A DNA stretch of 46,592 nt from a virus. Positions 2,592 to 18,229 of the stretch are shown in pieces. Positions within the stretch are counted from its first letter, which is position 1, and the number at the start of each line of letters is the position of its first letter. The notes beneath the pieces were generated by a model. It was given only the letters and a program-made list of their open reading frames with translations. It was not told where the DNA came from and ran no database searches. The stretch covers positions 1 through 46,592 of the IMG/VR virus record IMGVR_UViG_3300047175_000274; one strand, 5' to 3'. A program made the translations under genes and the position numbers.

Positions 2592-2822
2592 GTGCCCTTG
2601 TTAATCGGAGGCAGAAAGTTGTATCGGATAGGGGAGGCCCTCGCATCGGCTTCGGTGAGCCGGGCAACGTATTTTCGCTGGCTCAAGCTTGGTCGACTGA
2701 AGGACACGCAGTTCAAGGATCGGAACGGGCGCCGAGTTTTCACCGAGGAGGAACTGAACGACCTGAAGCGAGAAGCCCAGCGCTTAGTAGAGGCTCCACA
2801 GATCCCGCTGACGTTTGGATGA
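2592..2822 (+). CDS. Small MerR/AlpA-like HTH protein
   Basis: A 76-residue protein starting at GTG 2592. Residues 11-37 form a helix-turn-helix of the excisionase/MerR type (Y-R-I-G-E-A-L ... S-R-A-T-Y-F-R-W-L-K-L-G-R-L), followed by a winged stretch ending in G-R-R-V-F-T-E-E-E-L. It is the first gene after the candidate promoter at 2533 and ends five bases before vsr, so it is likely co-transcribed with the restriction-modification genes. It could be the controller of that cassette or an excisionase-like factor of the element; the sequence does not decide between them. Its GC content is lower than that of the recombinase, as in the vsr and methyltransferase genes that follow, which suggests they arrived together. 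Confidence 0.7.
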   Translation: MPLLIGGRKLYRIGEALASASVSRATYFRWLKLGRLKDTQFKDRNGRRVFTEEELNDLKREAQRLVEAPQIPLTFG

Positions 2823-2826
2823 TGCC

Positions 2827-3243
2827 ATGACTGACATGTTCACAGCGGAACGCCGGAGCGAAATAATGGCGAACATCCGTTCTGTCGATACTGTACCTGA
2901 GGTTGAGTTACGCCGTCTGGTGCACACGCTCGGCTACAGGTTTCGGCTGCATCGGTCGGACCTGCCTGGAAAACCGGACGTGGTTCTTCCGAGACATCAT
3001 GCTGCGATCATGATGCACGGCTGCTTTTGGCACGGCCACACATGTAAGGATGGGCGTAAGCCGGGGAGCAACACGGAGTACTGGAACAGCAAGCTCGATC
3101 GCAACGCACAGCGCGACAAGAAGAACGTCGCCGCTCTGCGGCGGCTTGGATGGAAATGTCTGGTTGTCTGGGAGTGCCAGTTGAAGAACAAAGAACGATT
3201 GACGGAACGGATAATTCGGTTTCTGGAAGGGACGCCGAAATGA
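2827..3243 (+). CDS. vsr: Very short patch repair endonuclease (Vsr)
   Basis: Nicks 5' of T:G mismatches produced by deamination of 5-methylcytosine, protecting the host from mutation by the neighbouring C5 methyltransferase. Using ATG 2827 (138 residues), the catalytic residues fall exactly on the numbering I know for the E. coli enzyme: E25, D51 in L-P-G-K-P-D, H64, F67-W68 and H69 in H-G-C-F-W-H-G-H. The mismatch-recognition cysteine and histidine segment (H-G-H-T-C-K-D) follows. A longer reading from TTG 2815 overlaps the previous stop and is less likely. The stop overlaps the methyltransferase ATG (ATGA at 3240-3243), so the two are translationally coupled. The family call is confident. 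Confidence 0.95.
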   Translation: MTDMFTAERRSEIMANIRSVDTVPEVELRRLVHTLGYRFRLHRSDLPGKPDVVLPRHHAAIMMHGCFWHGHTCKDGRKPGSNTEYWNSKLDRNAQRDKKNVAALRRLGWKCLVVWECQLKNKERLTERIIRFLEGTPK

Positions 3244-4217
3244 AGCCGACGCTGGCCTCATTCTTCTCCGGCATCGGCGGTGTTGACCTAGGATTTATCA
3301 ACGCTGGGTTCAAGGTCACGATGCAATGCGAGGTTGATAAGTTCTGTCAGTCGATCCTAGCGGCCCATTGGCCCAAGACACCGAGATTCAAAGACATCAA
3401 GGAGGTTACTAATGCAGATGTCCCTGTTTCAGATGTTTGGGCAGGAGGATTCCCCTGCCAAGACGTCTCGCTTGCGCGGATGGGGCCGCGAGCTGGGCTT
3501 AAAGGGAAAAAGTCTGGACTGTTTTTTGAGTTTGCTCGCCTACTTGAAACAGGACGTCCCAGAGTTTTCCTCATCGAGAACGTTCCAGGCCTCCTCTCTA
3601 GTCACGGAGGAAGAGACTTCGGAATCATCCTTCGAACGCTGGCCGACCTCGGGTATGGTGTGGGATGGCGCGTGCTTAACAGCAGGTATTTCGGAGTCGC
3701 CCAGTCACGTCAAAGAGTCTACATTGTCGGCTGTCATCGAGACTGGCGAGGTCCCGGAGAGATACTTTTTGAGTCCGAATGCGGCCAAGGGGATGATACG
3801 TCGAACGGACAGGATGGGAAGAAACCTGTTTCCCCCTTTAAGAAAAGCATTGGAGATCCTCTCACAGGACCAATAACTCCGAGCCTTGCTTACTGCCTCT
3901 ACGCCTGCTCTGCACGACACACAGGCACGGATTGGAGCCGCAATTATGTGTCTTATCCGGATGGCAGGGTCAGGCGGTTGATGCCAATTGAGTGTGAGCG
4001 ATTGCAGGGTTTCCCTGAGAACTGGACGATTCCAGACGTCCTTGATGTTACCGATCCTGACAAGGTGGATACACTGCGCTACAACGCGCTGGGCAACGCA
4101 GTCACGGTAACGGTTGCCGAGTGGATCGCAAGGCGGATCAAGACATATCTCCAGGCCGCAGACCAAAATGACGAACGCCATCAGGAACCTGAGCTAGCCG
4201 GTGTTCTCGCGAAGTAG
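3240..4217 (+). CDS. DNA (cytosine-5) methyltransferase, Dcm type
   Basis: The 325-residue product transfers a methyl group from AdoMet to C5 of cytosine in a specific duplex site. All core motifs are present in order: motif I F-F-S-G-I-G-G (residues 8-14), motif IV G-G-F-P-C-Q-D with catalytic Cys73, motif VI E-N-V, motif VIII Q-S-R-Q-R-V, then a variable target-recognition segment, motif IX R-L-M-P-I-E-C-E-R-L-Q-G-F-P and motif X G-N-A-V-T-V. ATG 3240 overlaps the vsr stop. A Vsr partner suggests the methylated site gives mutagenic T:G mismatches, as in Dcm systems, but the target cannot be read from sequence. The convergent HNH gene overlaps the 3' end by 24 bases and may be its restriction enzyme. 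Bases 3412-3876 are open in a second frame with a strong ribosome site (see the nested gene). Confidence 0.95.
   Translation: MKPTLASFFSGIGGVDLGFINAGFKVTMQCEVDKFCQSILAAHWPKTPRFKDIKEVTNADVPVSDVWAGGFPCQDVSLARMGPRAGLKGKKSGLFFEFARLLETGRPRVFLIENVPGLLSSHGGRDFGIILRTLADLGYGVGWRVLNSRYFGVAQSRQRVYIVGCHRDWRGPGEILFESECGQGDDTSNGQDGKKPVSPFKKSIGDPLTGPITPSLAYCLYACSARHTGTDWSRNYVSYPDGRVRRLMPIECERLQGFPENWTIPDVLDVTDPDKVDTLRYNALGNAVTVTVAEWIARRIKTYLQAADQNDERHQEPELAGVLAK
3399..3405 (+). promoter_or_regulatory. Internal ribosome binding site AAGGAGG for nested ORF
   Basis: AAGGAGG, a near-perfect anti-Shine-Dalgarno match, lies six bases before ATG 3412, inside the methyltransferase reading frame where it encodes Lys-Glu-Val. 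Its strength and spacing match an initiation site for the overlapping frame, not for the methyltransferase. Confidence 0.6.
3412..3876 (+). CDS. Nested overlapping gene inside the C5 methyltransferase
   Basis: A 154-codon ORF read one base out of register with the methyltransferase (its +1 frame) and entirely inside it, from before motif IV to the target-recognition segment. It has its own AAGGAGG six bases upstream. The product opens with M-S-L-F-Q and G-Q-E-D-S-P-A-K-T-S, has a central R-W-P-T-S-G-M-V-W-D-G segment, and ends with V-P-E-R-Y-F-L-S-P-N-A-A-K-G-M-I-R-R and a basic tail. From memory this resembles a widespread family of uncharacterised phage proteins marked by S-P-A-K-T-S and R-Y-F-L-S-x-x-A-x-x-G-I-L-R-R that are annotated next to or over C5 methyltransferases. 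S-P-A-K-T-S is what motif IV (G-F-P-C-Q-D) gives one base out of register. Function unknown. Alternatives are a chance open frame, or a family that exists in databases only as alternate-frame translations. Confidence 0.6.
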   Translation: MQMSLFQMFGQEDSPAKTSRLRGWGRELGLKGKSLDCFLSLLAYLKQDVPEFSSSRTFQASSLVTEEETSESSFERWPTSGMVWDGACLTAGISESPSHVKESTLSAVIETGEVPERYFLSPNAAKGMIRRTDRMGRNLFPPLRKALEILSQDQ

Positions 4218-5372
4218 CTCAAGGTAGCGTGCTTTGGGCCGGTCCTCACGACGCCTTGGAAGGCGAGCCTCTGGTATGGGACCTGCAAAATCACTCAGGG
4301 AGGCAAGTCCGAAATTTCGATCCTCAGCGAGGATGGCCTGGGACTTCTCTGCCGGAACCTCGATGCGGTAGACACCGTTCTCAGCGCGGATCAGGACCAA
4401 GCCCTCGTCGAACGCCCAGTGATGGTGCTTGCAGAGACAGATGCCGTTGCAGACATGATCCAGGTCGTAGTCGGCCCAGGGAAGTATGTGTGCAGCATCG
4501 ACCCCTGCGGAAGTGTTGTGGGAGGTCGATGGGAGATGCAGGCCGCAAACTGCACAGGTAGACTTCCACGCTTGGCGCACAGCCTGGCGGAATCTCGCAC
4601 TGGCGGCACCTCTTGATGCTGCCCACCGTTTCCACTCCTTCACTGTCCGGCGCCGGATCTCTGTCTCGTCCGGGTCCACATCTGCGACCGCGATGGGCGG
4701 AGCAGCAGGCGGCTCGCTGAGCGACGCGAGTAGGTCCGGCAAGGCATCTTGGCCCTCGCTGCGGTACAGGATGCCGAGGTCAGCAGCGCTCTCGGTCACG
4801 GCTCGTTGAATTGCCTCGACTACTCGTTCTGCTTCTTCGGGAACAGGCTGGCCAGACCGAGTGAGCTTACGGTGAGTGGCAACCAGGGTCGCCATTGCTT
4901 CCGGTAGCTGATTGCGGTTGCTCCACACATGATCGAGGTTCGTGAGGCGCTCCACGAGTCCGAGTTGTTCGGCATGATGACTAACGTTCAGCAGAATAAT
5001 CTCGCCAGCACGTAGTCGAACCGCGTCGGCGCCAATCAGTTCTGCGTCGCTGATCTCAATGTGCTCGATCGCATAGCGGTTCGCCTGCAATATCGGCATG
5101 CCTCTGCCAAGAGGAGCGTCAGCTCTGACCGAGTGCGGCATCATCAGTGCTGCGGCGACCTGGCGTTGTAGCTGGATGTCGGCATCAAGGCGCCTGAGCC
5201 TGCGCTTACCGCCCTGGTTCGTAAGTTGGATGCCCGTGTTAATGACCCAGGAATTGTTGAGCACGAGCAATATTCGGCGATGAAACAGGTCGCGCGGAGT
5301 CAGGCCGTTCGGCGCCGACTCGCTGATCTCGTACTCGCCACGTCCGCCGCTCGTGCGGCGGGATATTCGCAT
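4194..5372 (-). CDS. HNH endonuclease, candidate restriction enzyme
   Basis: A 392-residue protein with an HNH nuclease domain near the C-terminus: C273-x2-C276, then A-A-H-I-L-P-W with H295, N309 in V-C-N-G-I-C, and H318 in K-H-H-H-W-A-F-D-E-G. The alternating Cys pairs (273/276 and 312/314) suggest a structural zinc. This is the fold of many type II and McrA-like HNH restriction enzymes. The N-terminal 260 residues are not recognised and would hold DNA recognition. It converges on the C5 methyltransferase with a 24-base overlap, a common restriction-modification layout, so I infer it is the cognate endonuclease. A methylation-dependent or homing-type HNH enzyme is possible instead. The start at 5372 has no strong ribosome site; the 118-base gap to the next, divergent gene must hold its promoter. 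Confidence 0.8.
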   Translation of the reverse strand: MRISRRTSGGRGEYEISESAPNGLTPRDLFHRRILLVLNNSWVINTGIQLTNQGGKRRLRRLDADIQLQRQVAAALMMPHSVRADAPLGRGMPILQANRYAIEHIEISDAELIGADAVRLRAGEIILLNVSHHAEQLGLVERLTNLDHVWSNRNQLPEAMATLVATHRKLTRSGQPVPEEAERVVEAIQRAVTESAADLGILYRSEGQDALPDLLASLSEPPAAPPIAVADVDPDETEIRRRTVKEWKRWAASRGAASARFRQAVRQAWKSTCAVCGLHLPSTSHNTSAGVDAAHILPWADYDLDHVCNGICLCKHHHWAFDEGLVLIRAENGVYRIEVPAEKSQAILAEDRNFGLASLSDFAGPIPEARLPRRREDRPKARYLELLRENTG

Positions 5373-5490: not shown

Positions 5491-8400
5491 ATGAAAATCG
5501 AGCCGGACGGGATTCGCTTATCGGCCACCGATCTGACGAATCATTTGGTCTGCCACCACCTAACCTCGCTGGATCTGGCTGTTGCGACCGGTGAGAGACC
5601 GGCACCGGCATGGAGATCGCCAGACCTTTGGGTTCTTCAGAAACGGGGGGAGGAGCATGAGGCCACCTATCTTGCCCATTTGCAGGATGCTGGACTCACA
5701 GTATTGAATCTGCGAGATGTTGACAGCGAGGAGCGAGCAATCGCGGAGGCGTATGCTGCGATGACAGCTGGCGCTCCAGTTATTGCCCAGGCTACGTTCG
5801 CGGATCACCGCTGGTTCGGCCGAGCGGATGTGCTCCGCCGGGTTGAACGACCGAGCAAACTCGGCGCCTGGTCCTACGAGGTCTACGATTGCAAACTCGC
5901 TCGCGAAACCAAGGCGACTACCGTTCTGCAACTATCCCTTTACTCGGAGCTTTTGGCTGCTGTTCAGGACATCCTGCCGGAGTCAATGTACGTGGTGCCG
6001 CCTAGTGCCGATTTTGAGGCCGAGCCTTACCGTGTGCTGGACTTCGCGGCCTACTACCGCTACATCAAAGCGCGATTAGAAAACGTAGTCGACGGGGCGT
6101 CTCGTAGCCTGCCGACGTACCCGGAACCGAATCTTCATTGCCCCCTCTGCCGCTGGTGGCAGGAGTGCGATGCCCAGTGGCGTCGCGACGATCATCTCTC
6201 GCTGGTGGCGGGCATCAGCAAACTGCAACGCAAGCAACTCCAGATCTGGGAAACCAGCACGGTCGAGCAACTTGCGCAACTGCCGTTGCCAATCCAGCAG
6301 CGTCCCGAGCATGGATCAACAGAAGGATACGTCCGCGTCCGAGAGCAGGCGCGCGTCCAGGTCCTCGGACGCAGGAAGAATGGCCCTGTGCATGAGGTGC
6401 TGGACATTACCGACGACCGGGGGCTGTCGCGGCTCCCTGATTCTTCGCCTGGAGACATTTTCTTCGATCTGGAGGGTGATCCGTTCGTGGGGCTGTCAGG
6501 CCGGGAGTACCTATTTGGATTCGTCGTCGAGGACGGAGGTAAGCCCGTGTACGCATGCCGTTGGGCTCCGAGTGCCGAAGAGGAGAAGGAAGCCTTTGAA
6601 TGGTTCGTGGACTCGGTGATGGCGCGTTGGTCGCAGCACCCGGGATTGCACATCTACCACTTCGCGGCTTATGAGCCATCGGCGTTGAAACGGATGATGG
6701 GACGCCACGCCACGCGCGAAGACGAGGTGGATCGAATGTTGCGCGCAGGATTGCTCGTGGATCTCCACGCGATTGTGAAGCAGACAGTTCGCGCCAGCGT
6801 CGAGGAATACTCGTTGAAGGCATTGGAAATCTTTCACGCGTTTGAGCGTGCTGTGCCGCTCAAAGACTCGCGCCAGGCGATGCATCGCGTTGAGCACGGC
6901 CTGGAATTGGGGCTGTTCACGGACATCGACGCGACCACCAGGAAAACGATCGAAGGATACAACGCTGATGACTGCCTTTCCACACGATCTCTCCGAAACT
7001 GGCTTGAGCATGAGAGAGGAGCGCTGGAGGAAGCCGGCCACAAGATAGGCCGGCCCGCGCCATCGAAAGGCGCGCCCCCTGAAGCGGTCGGTGAACGCCA
7101 ACAACGTGTCGCGGCCCTCATTCAGCAGCTCACCCAAGATATTCCGGCAGACGACCAGGAACGTACCGACGAACAGAGAGCGCTCTGGTTGCTCGCGAAT
7201 CTTCTCGACTGGCATCGGCGGGAAAGCAAAGCAGACTGGTGGGAATTCTTCCGATTAAAGGACCTGCCTGAAGAGGAACTTCTGTACGACAAGTCGGGGT
7301 TGGGCGGACTGACGCTGATCCGCCGGCTTGGTCTCAATGGAAAGCTTCCCGTTGACCGCTACTCGTTCCCTAAGCAAGAGACAGAAATACGCGAGGGAGA
7401 TGCGGTTCTTCAGAAAGGCGACAAAATCGGCGAGGTGTTGGCGATAGACTTCGCGGATTGCACGGTCGATATTAAGAAAACTAAGAAGACCATCGACACG
7501 CATCCGTCCTCTGTGTTCCTGGATACCAGGGGGCCGAACTGGGAGTCCTTGGCCGAATCCTTGTTCCGCCTGGCGACGTGGGTTAGAGACAACGGGATCG
7601 ATGCGCCTGGTGCTCACCGTGCCGGTCGGGACCTTCTGCTGCGCCGACCGCCACGGCTCACTGGAGAAGGAGAACTCGCTCGCCCAAATGAATCCACCGT
7701 GGATGCTGCCAAGAGGGTCGGTATGTCGCTCGATCATTCCGTGCTAGCTATCCAAGGACCGCCTGGCTCAGGCAAGACCTTCACCGGTGCGCGAATGATC
7801 TGTGAGCTGGTCCGCCAGGGGAAAAAGGTAGGGGTTACGGCCGTAAGCCACAAGGTAGTTCGAAACCTGCTGGACGCGGTGCTCGAGGCCGCCGACGAAA
7901 CTGGTTTGAATTGGCTGCGCTGTGTACAGAAGGTGAGTGAAAAACCGGAAGAAGACCCGCCGGAGAGGATAGTTCTGACGACCCGAAATGAGGACCCTTT
8001 GACGACGCTCAACGAGGGCGCTGCTCAGGTCGCCGCGGGCACCGCATGGATGTGGTCAAGAGAAGAGTTCTTCGAAGCGGTCGATGTCCTGTTTGTAGAT
8101 GAAGCAGGGCAGATGTCTCTGGCGAACGCGCTGGCAGTGGTCCAAGCTACAAAGAGCATCGTTCTCTTGGGTGACCCACAACAATTGGACCAGCCGCTGC
8201 GAGGAAGCCATCCCGAGGGTGCCGAGGCTTCCGCACTCGGGCATCTGCTCGCCGGGGCTAAGACGATTGCAGCCGACAAGGGCCTGTTTCTTGAGAAGAC
8301 CTGGCGGCTACACCCAGAGATATGCAAGTTCACTTCCGAGGTCTTCTACGAAAACCGCTTGCAGTCACGAAGCGGCTTAGAGCGCCAGCAGATCGACGGG

Positions 8401-8931
8401 CATCCGTGGATCGGTCCCGCGGGTTTGTGGTTTGTGCCCGTGAATCACCAAGGCAATCAGAACTCTTCCCCGGAAGAAGTGGCGCGAGTTGCCGGCATCG
8501 TTGACAGTCTCCTCGCCCCCGGCGTCATCTGGATTGATGACGCTGGCAACGCCAGGCAGGTCCAACTCGACGACATTTTGATCGTCGCGCCGTACAACGC
8601 GCAGGTTTCCGATTTGGCGAATCGCTTGAATGGCGCGCGGGTAGGGACGGTCGATAAGTTCCAGGGGCAGGAGGCGGCGATCGTGATCTATTCGCTGACC
8701 ACGTCCTCGCCGGAGGACGCTCCTCGTGGAATGGAGTTTCTCTACAGCTTGAATCGGTTTAACGTGGCGACCTCGCGTGCCCGGGCCGTCGTCCTCGTTG
8801 TAGGAAGTCCTCGGCTCTTGGAGCCGGAATGCCGCACCCCACGCCAAATGCAGCTGGCGAACGCACTCTGTCGCTACGGCGAACTGGCCTCCGTCATCGA
8901 AACAGCCACTGTAACCGGCACGATCCGCTAG
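5491..8931 (+). CDS. RecB-like nuclease / RNase H-like exonuclease / SF1 helicase fusion (TM0106 family)
   Basis: A 1146-residue three-part enzyme. Residues 1-230 are a Cas4/RecB-like PD-(D/E)XK nuclease: D113, D133-x-K135, then a Q-L-S-L-Y-S motif, with C21 plus C217, C220 and C226 placed to hold an Fe-S cluster. Residues about 315-510 look like a DEDD-type RNase H-like exonuclease: F-F-D-L-E-G-D-P (D326, E328), H-F-A-A-Y-E, and Y-N-A-D-D-C. Residues about 735-1130 are an SF1B Dna2/Nam7-like helicase: G-P-P-G-S-G-K-T (K762), D-E-A-G (870-873), D-P-Q-Q-L-D, and the C-terminal V-D-K-F-Q-G-Q-E and N-V-A-T-S-R-A-R motifs. It is predicted to unwind and degrade DNA ends. ATG 5491 follows AAGGA. 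Neighbours suggest a defence role, but a host recombination or repair role is possible; the substrate is unknown. Confidence 0.88.
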   Translation: MKIEPDGIRLSATDLTNHLVCHHLTSLDLAVATGERPAPAWRSPDLWVLQKRGEEHEATYLAHLQDAGLTVLNLRDVDSEERAIAEAYAAMTAGAPVIAQATFADHRWFGRADVLRRVERPSKLGAWSYEVYDCKLARETKATTVLQLSLYSELLAAVQDILPESMYVVPPSADFEAEPYRVLDFAAYYRYIKARLENVVDGASRSLPTYPEPNLHCPLCRWWQECDAQWRRDDHLSLVAGISKLQRKQLQIWETSTVEQLAQLPLPIQQRPEHGSTEGYVRVREQARVQVLGRRKNGPVHEVLDITDDRGLSRLPDSSPGDIFFDLEGDPFVGLSGREYLFGFVVEDGGKPVYACRWAPSAEEEKEAFEWFVDSVMARWSQHPGLHIYHFAAYEPSALKRMMGRHATREDEVDRMLRAGLLVDLHAIVKQTVRASVEEYSLKALEIFHAFERAVPLKDSRQAMHRVEHGLELGLFTDIDATTRKTIEGYNADDCLSTRSLRNWLEHERGALEEAGHKIGRPAPSKGAPPEAVGERQQRVAALIQQLTQDIPADDQERTDEQRALWLLANLLDWHRRESKADWWEFFRLKDLPEEELLYDKSGLGGLTLIRRLGLNGKLPVDRYSFPKQETEIREGDAVLQKGDKIGEVLAIDFADCTVDIKKTKKTIDTHPSSVFLDTRGPNWESLAESLFRLATWVRDNGIDAPGAHRAGRDLLLRRPPRLTGEGELARPNESTVDAAKRVGMSLDHSVLAIQGPPGSGKTFTGARMICELVRQGKKVGVTAVSHKVVRNLLDAVLEAADETGLNWLRCVQKVSEKPEEDPPERIVLTTRNEDPLTTLNEGAAQVAAGTAWMWSREEFFEAVDVLFVDEAGQMSLANALAVVQATKSIVLLGDPQQLDQPLRGSHPEGAEASALGHLLAGAKTIAADKGLFLEKTWRLHPEICKFTSEVFYENRLQSRSGLERQQIDGHPWIGPAGLWFVPVNHQGNQNSSPEEVARVAGIVDSLLAPGVIWIDDAGNARQVQLDDILIVAPYNAQVSDLANRLNGARVGTVDKFQGQEAAIVIYSLTTSSPEDAPRGMEFLYSLNRFNVATSRARAVVLVVGSPRLLEPECRTPRQMQLANALCRYGELASVIETATVTGTIR

Positions 8932-15079: not shown

Positions 15080-15454
15080 ATGACGGCGGATCGCGATTCC
15101 ACATTCACGGCGAAACTTGCCTCCTCCAATGCTCCCTACGTCTGGGCTGTGGTGATTCTCACTGCCGTCGCGGCGGTTCTGGTGCTTGTGATTGTCTGGC
15201 TCCGTCCGAAAGCCGATGCGCTGGACGTCGTTGCGCAGGTGGCCAAGGGGCTGGCTCCGACCGTCGCGGGCGTGATGGCTTATCTGAAGGCGCAGGAGAC
15301 GCACCTGTCCGTGAACTCACGCCTCGACGCATTCATGCGGGAGAACGCCGCTCTGGCGCGCAGAGAAGGGCAGATTCAGGGCATGGCCGATGAACAGGCC
15401 CGCCAGGCCGCGCTGGACGTGGTGGCCCGCAAAAACGAGGCTTCAGGCAATTGA
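15080..15454 (+). CDS. Small single-pass membrane protein
   Basis: A 124-residue protein starting at ATG 15080 with GAGGAG just upstream. Residues about 20-42 are a strong hydrophobic helix (V-W-A-V-V-I-L-T-A-V-A-A-V-L-V-L-V-I-V-W-L) followed by a positively charged R-P-K. The rest is mostly helical, with an Ala/Arg/Glu-rich coiled-coil-like C-terminus (about 85-120). It could be a holin-like or membrane-anchoring phage protein, but lysis genes normally sit near the tail genes, so this is not claimed. Its TGA overlaps the TTG start of the following methyltransferase. Confidence 0.7.
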   Translation: MTADRDSTFTAKLASSNAPYVWAVVILTAVAAVLVLVIVWLRPKADALDVVAQVAKGLAPTVAGVMAYLKAQETHLSVNSRLDAFMRENAALARREGQIQGMADEQARQAALDVVARKNEASGN

Positions 15455-16980
15455 CCACAACATCCATCGCTCCGCAGATGGCTCGGCGCATCGAGATCTG
15501 GCCGGTGGGCCGCCTGGTCCCGTACGCGCGGAATGCGCGCACGCACTCGGACGCCCAGGTTGCGCAGATCGCGGCATCCATCGCGGAGTTCGGTTTCAAC
15601 GCTCCAATCCTGGTGGACAGCAACGCCGGGATCGTCGCCGGCCACGGTCGTTTGCTGGCGGCGCGGAAGTTGGGCCTGCCAGAAGTCCCCGTCGTCGTGC
15701 TGGACCATCTGAGCGACACTCAGCGGCGAGCGTACATCATCGCGGACAACAAGCTCTCGGAGAACGCTGGATGGGACGAAAAGCTCCTGGCGGCGGAACT
15801 CACCGATCTGGAACATGAGGGTCTGGACCTCCGGCTCGTTGGATTCTCTGACGACGAGTTGGAAGCGCTGCTGGCGAATGACGGTGATGGTTCTGAACCG
15901 GAAGACGAAGAACCGATTCCGGAACCACCCAGCCAGCCGATCACCCAGCCCGGCGACGTGTGGTTGATCGGAAACCATCGGTTGATCTGCGGCGACTGCC
16001 GCGACTTCGATGTCGTCGAGAGGGTCCTCGAAGGGAAGCGCGCGAACGTGGTTATTACTTCGCCGCCCTACGCCACGCAGCGCGAGTACGATCCCACCAG
16101 CGGCTTCAAGCCAGTGCCTCCGGAAGAGTACTGCGATTGGTTTCGCGATGTCGCCGCCAACATCCAAGCGATCCTGGCACCCGACGGCTCGTACTTCCTC
16201 AACATCAAAGCTCATGCTGATGAAGGCGAGCGCAGTCTCTACGTGATGGATCTCGTCCTGGCGCACAAGCGGGAGTGGGGCTGGCGCTTCGTCGATGAAC
16301 TTTGCTGGCGCAAGACGGACAACGGTGTGCCAGGCGGCTGGGGCAATCGATTCAAGAATGCGTGGGAGCCGGTCTTCCACTTCTGCCGCCAACCCGAGAT
16401 CAAGTTTCGGCCCAAGGCGGTCGGACACGTTTCGGAGGATTGCTTCGACTACTCGCCCGACAACCCCAAATCGACTTCCGGCAGCGGACTGCTGGGCACG
16501 GGAGCGCGCGGAAGTGCGGCGAAGAAAGCGGGCGCAGCCGACGATGATGGACGCTTCCGTGGCGTCGCGCGACCGAGCAATGTGATCGAGGCCAGGACGG
16601 AGTCCAACCAGGGATCACACTCCGCTCCTTTCCCGCGCGGCCTGGCTGAGTTCTTCGTTAAGGCGTTTACGGACAGCGGAGACGTGGTGTTCGATCCGTT
16701 CCTGGGAAGCGGGACCACGATGGCCGCCGGGGAAATACTCGGGCGGATCGGATTGGGTTGCGAGATCAGTCCATCCTATTGCGATGTGATCCTGCGCCGG
16801 ATCTCGAACCTGAGCGGCGAGATTCCGATTCTGCTCGCCACCGGTCAGGCGATCAACGAAGTCGCTACCGCACGCGGCGTCCCGCTGGAGCAGGTTGACA
16901 ATCCCCGCGCACGGGACGCGCGGCGCATTCAACACCACGGGCCGGCACCGTTCTACGGGAGCCGCCGGAAGGTTTCCTGA
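15451..16980 (+). CDS. ParB-N / DNA methyltransferase fusion 1
   Basis: A 509-residue protein. Residues about 15-125 are a ParB/Srx-type nuclease-like domain (Y-A-R-N-A-R-T-H-S, then V-A-G-H-G-R-L-L-A-A, I-I-A-D-N-K-L). After an acidic linker (about 148-165) comes an amino-methyltransferase domain with T-S-P-P-Y at 203-207 and D-P-F-L-G-S-G-T at 415-422. S-P-P-Y favours N4-cytosine and D-P-P-Y N6-adenine, so this copy leans to N4-cytosine. Catalytic motif first and AdoMet motif last is the beta order. It may methylate phage DNA against host restriction. TTG 15451 is coupled to the gene upstream; ATG 15478 is an alternative. The Asn-Gly-rich insertion at about 355-385 is unusual. Confidence 0.9.
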   Translation: MTTTSIAPQMARRIEIWPVGRLVPYARNARTHSDAQVAQIAASIAEFGFNAPILVDSNAGIVAGHGRLLAARKLGLPEVPVVVLDHLSDTQRRAYIIADNKLSENAGWDEKLLAAELTDLEHEGLDLRLVGFSDDELEALLANDGDGSEPEDEEPIPEPPSQPITQPGDVWLIGNHRLICGDCRDFDVVERVLEGKRANVVITSPPYATQREYDPTSGFKPVPPEEYCDWFRDVAANIQAILAPDGSYFLNIKAHADEGERSLYVMDLVLAHKREWGWRFVDELCWRKTDNGVPGGWGNRFKNAWEPVFHFCRQPEIKFRPKAVGHVSEDCFDYSPDNPKSTSGSGLLGTGARGSAAKKAGAADDDGRFRGVARPSNVIEARTESNQGSHSAPFPRGLAEFFVKAFTDSGDVVFDPFLGSGTTMAAGEILGRIGLGCEISPSYCDVILRRISNLSGEIPILLATGQAINEVATARGVPLEQVDNPRARDARRIQHHGPAPFYGSRRKVS

Positions 16981-16984
16981 GCTT

Positions 16985-18229
16985 ATGAAGACCGAACTCC
17001 ACGTGCAGCAGTGGCCAGTTGAAAAACTGATCCCCTACGCCCGCAACGCCCGCACGCACTCCGAGGAGCAGGTGGCGCAGGTGGCGGCGAGCATCGTCGA
17101 GTTCGGCTGGACAAATCCGATCCTGGTCGGCGCGGACGGGGTGATCATCGCCGGCCACGCGCGGTTGGCGGCGGCCAGGAAGCTAAAGCTGACCGAGGTG
17201 CCGGTCATAGTCTTGGATCATCTGACTCCAACGCAGCGCCGGGCCCTGGTGCTCGCGGACAACCGGCTGGCACTCAGCGCCGGATGGGACGAAGAGATGC
17301 TGCGCGTGGAATTGGAGTCGCTCGAAGAGGACGGGTTCGACCTCGACCTAGTTGGATTCACCGACGAGGAGGTTGAGGAACTCCTGCGCGATCCGGAGGA
17401 GTCCAATGTTGGACTGACCGACGACGACGCGATCCCTGAAGAGGAGGAGCGCGCGATCACCGTGCTCGGGGACGTCTGGGTGATGGGCGAGCACAGGCTC
17501 CTGTGCGGTGATGCCACCAGCATGGACGCAGTGCAGGCCGTTCTATCCGGCGGCTTGGCCGACATGGTCTTTACGGACCCGCCGTACAACGTCGATTACG
17601 AGGGCAAGACGGCGAAGAAGCTCAAGATCGGCAACGACACGCTGGGCGGCAAGTTCTATGAGTTCCTCCGCGATGCGTGCGCGAACGTGTTGGCGGTCAC
17701 CAAGGGCGCCATCTACATCTGCATGTCGTCGTCGGAGTTGCACACGCTCCACCAGGCATTCACCGATGCCGGCGGCTATTGGTCCACGTTCGTGATCTGG
17801 GCGAAGCACCATTTCACGCTTGGCCGGTCGGACTACCAGCGGCAGTACGAACCGATTCTCTATGGCTGGCGAAAGGGCACGGATCACTTCTGGTGCGGCG
17901 CGCGGGACCAGGGCGATATCTGGTTCATCAAGCGGCCAGCATCGAGCCAGGCCCATCCGACCATGAAGCCTGTGGAGTTGGTGGAGCGGGCCATTCGGAA
18001 CAGCAGCAAGACGCGTGACACCATCCTCGATCCGTTCGGCGGATCGGGCACGACCATGATCGCGTGTGAGAAGTCGGGACGGCAAGCGCGGCTGATCGAA
18101 TTGGAGCCGAAGTATTGCGACGTGATCGTTCGTCGTTGGCAGGCGTTCACGGGGCGAGAAGCGAAGCTTGAGTCCGACGGGAAGAGCTACCGCGAAATCG
18201 CCGGAGCGCGAAGCGCAGTGGCAGCGTGA
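16985..18229 (+). CDS. ParB-N / DNA methyltransferase fusion 2
   Basis: A 414-residue relative of the gene just upstream, starting at ATG 16985 four bases after its stop. The ParB-like N-terminus is closely similar (Y-A-R-N-A-R-T-H-S, I-I-A-G-H-A-R, L-A-D-N-R-L), so the pair arose by duplication. The methyltransferase part differs: D-P-P-Y at 198-201, typical of N6-adenine enzymes, and D-P-F-G-G-S-G-T from 349. An acidic linker (about 140-165) joins the two domains. With the previous gene it gives the element two base modifications, presumably for protection from host restriction; the target sites are unknown. The 3' end overlaps a 66-residue ORF by 62 bases. Confidence 0.92.
   Translation: MKTELHVQQWPVEKLIPYARNARTHSEEQVAQVAASIVEFGWTNPILVGADGVIIAGHARLAAARKLKLTEVPVIVLDHLTPTQRRALVLADNRLALSAGWDEEMLRVELESLEEDGFDLDLVGFTDEEVEELLRDPEESNVGLTDDDAIPEEEERAITVLGDVWVMGEHRLLCGDATSMDAVQAVLSGGLADMVFTDPPYNVDYEGKTAKKLKIGNDTLGGKFYEFLRDACANVLAVTKGAIYICMSSSELHTLHQAFTDAGGYWSTFVIWAKHHFTLGRSDYQRQYEPILYGWRKGTDHFWCGARDQGDIWFIKRPASSQAHPTMKPVELVERAIRNSSKTRDTILDPFGGSGTTMIACEKSGRQARLIELEPKYCDVIVRRWQAFTGREAKLESDGKSYREIAGARSAVAA

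Follow-up and report, generated by a model that had tools for sequence, protein, structure and literature searches.

Does the long open frame inside the Dcm-type methyltransferase gene of this element encode a second protein, and what might such a protein do for the enzyme that surrounds it? The window, which is the whole stretch of DNA analysed, is a prophage-like IMG/VR contig of 46,592 bases, in which a large serine recombinase gene stands at one end and genes for capsid and tape measure proteins follow further on. Long, fully nested gene pairs in which both members are under selection are rare in DNA phages. The locus comprises the following features.

2815 to 3243, plus strand: Vsr-type mismatch endonuclease, with a four-base overlap with the alpha start (Pfam Vsr, E 4e-29; PHROG 13076, E 4e-49)
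3240 to 4217, plus strand: alpha, a C5-cytosine DNA methyltransferase of 325 aa (Pfam, TIGR00675, PHROG, motifs)
3399 to 3405, plus strand: Shine-Dalgarno sequence AAGGAGG, separated by six bases (3406-3411) from the beta ATG
3412 to 3876, plus strand: beta, a nested gene of 154 aa in the +1 frame, whose product is a putative subunit partner of alpha (PHROG 16143, class-2 profile, codon-position test)
3724 to 3867, plus strand: basic C-terminal helical mini-domain of beta, residues 105-152, in the DNA of the alpha linker that follows motif VIII (AlphaFold2)
4194 to 5372, minus strand: HNH endonuclease, candidate cognate restriction enzyme, convergent with alpha (Pfam HNH_2, E 2e-11)

The outer product, alpha, matches Pfam DNA_methylase (E 8e-61), TIGR00675 (E 3e-66) and PHROG 116. 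Besides these profile matches it carries the motifs by which a C5-cytosine DNA methyltransferase is recognised, namely I (nt 3258), IV with PCQ (3444), VI with ENV (3573), VIII with QxRxR (3702), IX (RRLMPIECERLQGFP, at 3972) and X (4092), all within a single chain. ATG 3240, which overlaps the end of the Vsr gene, is the likely start of alpha, though the longest ORF begins at 3150.

Beta runs from an ATG to a TAA stop over 154 codons. Its start lies 172 bases beyond that of alpha (3412 minus 3240), which places it in the +1 frame. An earlier note on this DNA had described a 154-codon ORF in that frame inside a Dcm-type gene, with AAGGAGG six bases ahead of its ATG, and both descriptions are correct (3412-3876 within 3240-4217; 3399-3405). 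It had also taken the early SPAKTS of the product for motif IV read one base out of register; GGFPCQD at nt 3444 indeed gives DSPAKTS. The late motif that it reported, RYFLSPNAAKGMIRR, is present, but its placement over the target-recognition segment was slightly off: the motif stands directly past motif VIII of alpha (nt 3702), over the linker preceding that segment, and beta ends within the linker. The beta sequence holds no motif IX, and its C-terminal part has a pI of 9.7.

The open frame in the window sequence is by itself weak evidence for a gene (P about 0.05). Shuffling the codons of alpha produced a +1 run of 171 codons or more in 5.3% of trials, and shuffling synonymous codons did so in 5.6%; one antisense frame is nearly as long, with 162 codons open, so that openness in this one sequence proves little. 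Although the window alone leaves this margin, a chance open frame is rejected by the comparative evidence.

Beta matches PHROG 16143 (E 6e-13), so that the conserved phage protein family to which the earlier note referred does exist; no model in Pfam or NCBIfam covers it. A tblastn search with beta gave matches in 141 phage and 499 plasmid records, and a scan of viral contigs with the single beta protein gave none. Locus scans were made with subgroup beta alignments, the pooled alignment being too diverse, and they yielded loci in viral contigs and in bacterial genomes of several phyla, among the matches listed. Among these matches, a beta product was identified at 260 of 261 loci. Mapping each hit to its frame, the check proposed alongside the original observation, showed that beta occupies the +1 frame relative to a Dcm-type gene at all 260 beta-positive loci among the matches listed, and no stand-alone beta was found among them. 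Judged from the relatives examined, each of them a +1-frame product of a C5 methyltransferase gene, PHROG 16143 is not a stand-alone family. PHROG 16143 (L011) and PHROG 1008 (L005) are both labelled 'DNA methyltransferase'; their beta products are without catalytic motifs I to VIII.

When alpha was used as the query, which avoids the bias of a beta search, 160 of 160 loci carried beta in the +1 frame (155 of the window type, or class 2, and five of a second class, class 1, described below); these sets were chosen by similarity to beta-bearing queries, some loci recur between them, and a beta in every phage C5 methyltransferase does not follow from them. The beta frame is free of stops from motif IV to VIII+35 at 139 of the 146 testable alpha-selected loci. 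Each of the other seven has a single stop close to motif IV, and all five of those inspected start beta further downstream. The same arrangement has been kept in hundreds of phages and prophages. In the alpha tree, all class-1 and most class-2 enzymes form one clade (99/94) and the streptococcal-type class 2 stands apart; the overlap may have arisen once or several times.

Conservation of alpha and its codon usage could, as passive by-products, yield both an open +1 frame and an apparent family, with no second protein made. The non-significant length of the frame in the window would fit this explanation, as would the N-terminal similarity among beta products, which is partly imposed by the alpha motifs; ordinary methyltransferases read in the +1 frame score up to 29 bits with the beta profile. 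Beta carriers, however, have scores between about 70 and 258 bits, members of the second class 31-72 bits, and the window beta reaches 148 bits with a class-2 family profile that was built without it. In most ordinary C5 methyltransferases this region is broken by 1-11 stops when read in +1, and in two of 32 by none.

Were alpha the sole coding frame, most of the variation would be expected at its third codon positions. Across 109 independent pairs, the difference at position 3 of alpha is 0.48 upstream of beta. It falls to 0.33 and 0.27 on the way from motif IV to motif VIII and to 0.20 and 0.22 from there to the beta stop, and is back at 0.52 immediately past that stop. Along the last stretch of beta, position 1 of alpha, which is the wobble position of beta, differs more than position 3 (0.285 against 0.221), the beta frame being more conserved than the alpha frame beyond motif VIII. 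The same course is seen in the clade formed by the window and its nearest relatives (L358 and L002), where position 3 goes from 0.70 to 0.18 and then to 0.69, with position 1 at 0.39 where position 3 is 0.18. In a control of 15 pairs of ordinary betaproteobacterial C5 methyltransferases, position 3 is flat, at 0.54-0.61, and shows no dip. The substitution comparison suggested earlier has therefore come out as predicted for two coding frames, with position 3 suppressed over beta and recovering at its stop, and protein-level selection on the beta frame is seen in the 109 pairs and in the window clade and is missing from the control. A passive echo of alpha is ruled out by the control methyltransferases, through their bit scores, their stops and their flat third positions, and we regard it as barely credible. 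Since the codon-position pattern, the profile scores and the stops in the controls agree, beta is to be read as protein-coding and as the dominant frame in its C-terminal part. By these sequence comparisons it is a real second gene, with both frames coding under selection.

Independent initiation is, from the start-site signals, the likeliest route to beta. Of the family loci, 64% have in the beta frame an ATG preceded by four or more matched Shine-Dalgarno bases, against 8.5% in the +2 control frame; for window-type loci the counts are 36 of 66 and 4 of 66. Together with the independent loci and the controlled codon-position tests, this enrichment bears out the earlier suggestion of a dual-coding pair that recurs across phage methyltransferases. 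Some family members, P1 among them, are without a clear beta start, and the open frame of beta often reaches upstream of the start, as would be expected if beta were made only as an alpha-beta fusion through programmed +1 frameshifting, without internal initiation. We consider this highly improbable given the strong AAGGAGG and ATG in the window, the enrichment of such sites in the beta frame, and the exceptional loci in which the start of beta is shifted downstream and not lost.

Arrangements of this kind are already known, if under-recognised, from streptococcal phages and Tn5252. In phage MM1 (MM1 1998), ORF13 and ORF14 are annotated as alpha and beta subunits of a C5 methyltransferase, and C5 methyltransferases that overlap in different frames have been described in the Streptococcus thermophilus 5093-group phages, with reference to MM1 and Tn5252 (PMC5601072). 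The window pair is of this type, which is defined by a PHROG 16143 family product in the +1 frame inside alpha: in all of them a homologous beta is nested in the +1 frame and alpha has its own motif IX. It differs in coming from a clade distant from MM1, with about 37% identity between the betas, in a longer C-terminal helical domain of beta (GMIRR...LRKALE) that is missing from the MM1 beta, and in its Vsr and HNH neighbours, which set it apart from the streptococcal pairs. Because such overlaps are published (PMC5601072), the finding is less novel than the earlier note proposed. What appears to be new is the breadth of the arrangement, which extends to P1 Dmt, the proof that both frames code, and the Vsr/HNH neighbourhood. 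In the openly searchable literature, subscription papers aside, we found neither a description of how widely it is spread over phages of many phyla, nor the nested frame of P1 dmt, nor a selection test.

The beta subunit of M.EcoHK31I is nested in an alternative frame of its alpha. This enzyme, which recognises YGGCCR, is a C5 methyltransferase of two polypeptides according to PMC3404938, where Lee, Kam and Shaw 1995 is cited under a title stating that two proteins are required for in vitro methylation. Its motif IX is in the small subunit, whereas in the window motif IX (RRLMPIECERLQGFP) is in alpha and beta has none, and membership of the window in the M.EcoHK31I type is rejected on this ground. 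The published M.EcoHK31I layout is matched instead by the second class (PHROG 1008; L005, L262-L275, L425, L427, L432-L434 and L471), in which alpha ends with motif X and is without motif IX, and the nested +1-frame beta terminates in motif IX, NPRFVEQMMGFP. A class-1 search of plasmids gave two Paracoccus matches only. Homology between the class-1 and class-2 betas was not accepted on an hhalign probability of 97.8% over the N-terminal 102 columns, because the alpha motifs force similarity over that region.

M.AquI is also a two-subunit C5 methyltransferase (PMC3404938). It consists of one chain simply split in the variable region, with motifs IX and X on the second subunit and no nested extra protein; such a split is rejected for the window, where both motifs are in alpha. 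In Mycobacterium phage Lucky2013 (genes 113-114; L009 1275-2475), alpha ends before motifs IX and X, and these are found in the next ORF, in another frame, as in a split or frameshifted enzyme. The Dcm half of P1 Dmt (AF234172 dmt) holds an unannotated nested +1 frame of 163 open codons (L506 2429-2917) that carries the C-terminal motif of beta, IPQRYFLSSKACAGILRRGEKRRKSLPPLLQMALQ. P1 Dmt is unlike the window in that its Dcm half is fused to a Dam domain, making a Dam-Dcm bifunctional enzyme, and in that the nested frame has no clear start codon.

AlphaFold2 was run on beta alone, with 91 relatives in the input. Residues 1-100 have a pLDDT of about 50, and residues 105-152 form a confident basic helical domain with a pLDDT of about 97 at its core. 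The core of alpha (residues 1-180) is predicted with a pLDDT of about 95, and its residues 181-214 (pLDDT below 50) and 222-233 are not confident. Residue n of beta sits over alpha codon about 57+n, so that the folded part of beta falls mostly over the unresolved part of alpha, and vice versa; in these models each product is ordered mainly where the other is not. Disorder is a known way in which overlapping proteins ease their mutual constraint (PMC8227390). Searches of the PDB with beta gave no similar structure by fold and no match by sequence.

We propose that the product of the locus is a C5-cytosine methyltransferase of two proteins, nested as alpha and beta, with beta as a subunit, and give this reading a probability of about three in four. 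By analogy, a subunit working with alpha is the likeliest role of beta, and M.EcoHK31I, with its need for two polypeptides (PMC3404938), makes such a partnership plausible. Alpha (3240-4217) would supply the catalytic core with motifs I-X, and beta (3412-3876) would be initiated at its own ribosome site within alpha, in the +1 frame. The extended N-terminal part of beta may pack against alpha and its folded, basic C-terminal helical domain may make a structural contact or one with DNA, through which the subunit would enable or tune methylation; the overlap itself might couple the synthesis of the two proteins. Alpha might be active without beta, since unlike the EcoHK31I enzyme it retains motif IX.

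Beta could also be a genuine nested gene with a role separate from methylation. It might, for instance, bind DNA and regulate its own operon, or act against restriction, and the overlap would then do no more than couple expression. Its basic (pI 9.7), arginine-rich C-terminal domain is compatible with this, and with all the motifs in alpha itself beta is not obviously required for catalysis. Independent movement would, however, be expected of a free-standing regulator or inhibitor, and beta was never found apart from alpha at the 260 beta-selected loci among the matches listed; the two-polypeptide precedent, moreover, requires both chains (PMC3404938). A separate role seems unlikely to us, though less so than the other alternatives.

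The neighbours of the pair suggest a restriction-modification-like module. An HNH protein adjoins alpha and beta in all three members of the window clade (the window, L358 and L002), the homologues being 38% identical to the window HNH in L358 and 30% identical over 186 aa in L002, and Vsr is present in two of the three (the window and L002); the common neighbourhood is based on these three loci. With Vsr upstream and the HNH nuclease downstream, the proposed alpha/beta methyltransferase would most likely serve such a module on the prophage.

The inner gene is usually omitted by gene callers despite its recurrence in hundreds of genomes. A cloned alpha always brings beta with it, and a codon-optimised synthetic alpha silently destroys beta, so that activity measured on synthetic genes may be misleading. 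For P1 Dmt, for example, it can now be tested whether the Dcm half depends on the unannotated inner product. More tentatively, and in our view less likely than not, nested beta, whose fold is unmatched, may be near-universal in one large clade of phage C5 methyltransferases that includes P1 Dmt and may control how active or how specific they are; work on many phage Dcm enzymes that were considered inactive, or whose specificity is unknown, would then have been done unaware of beta.

Elsewhere in the window, a DUF2924 gene followed by the large serine recombinase (1-1504) is a likely integration edge. Beside the methyltransferase module lies a gene (5491-8931), possibly related to defence, whose 1146-aa product combines an RNase_H_2 domain with a superfamily-1 helicase domain. 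Two neighbouring genes at 15451-18229 are of the ParB-domain plus N6/N4 DNA methyltransferase type.
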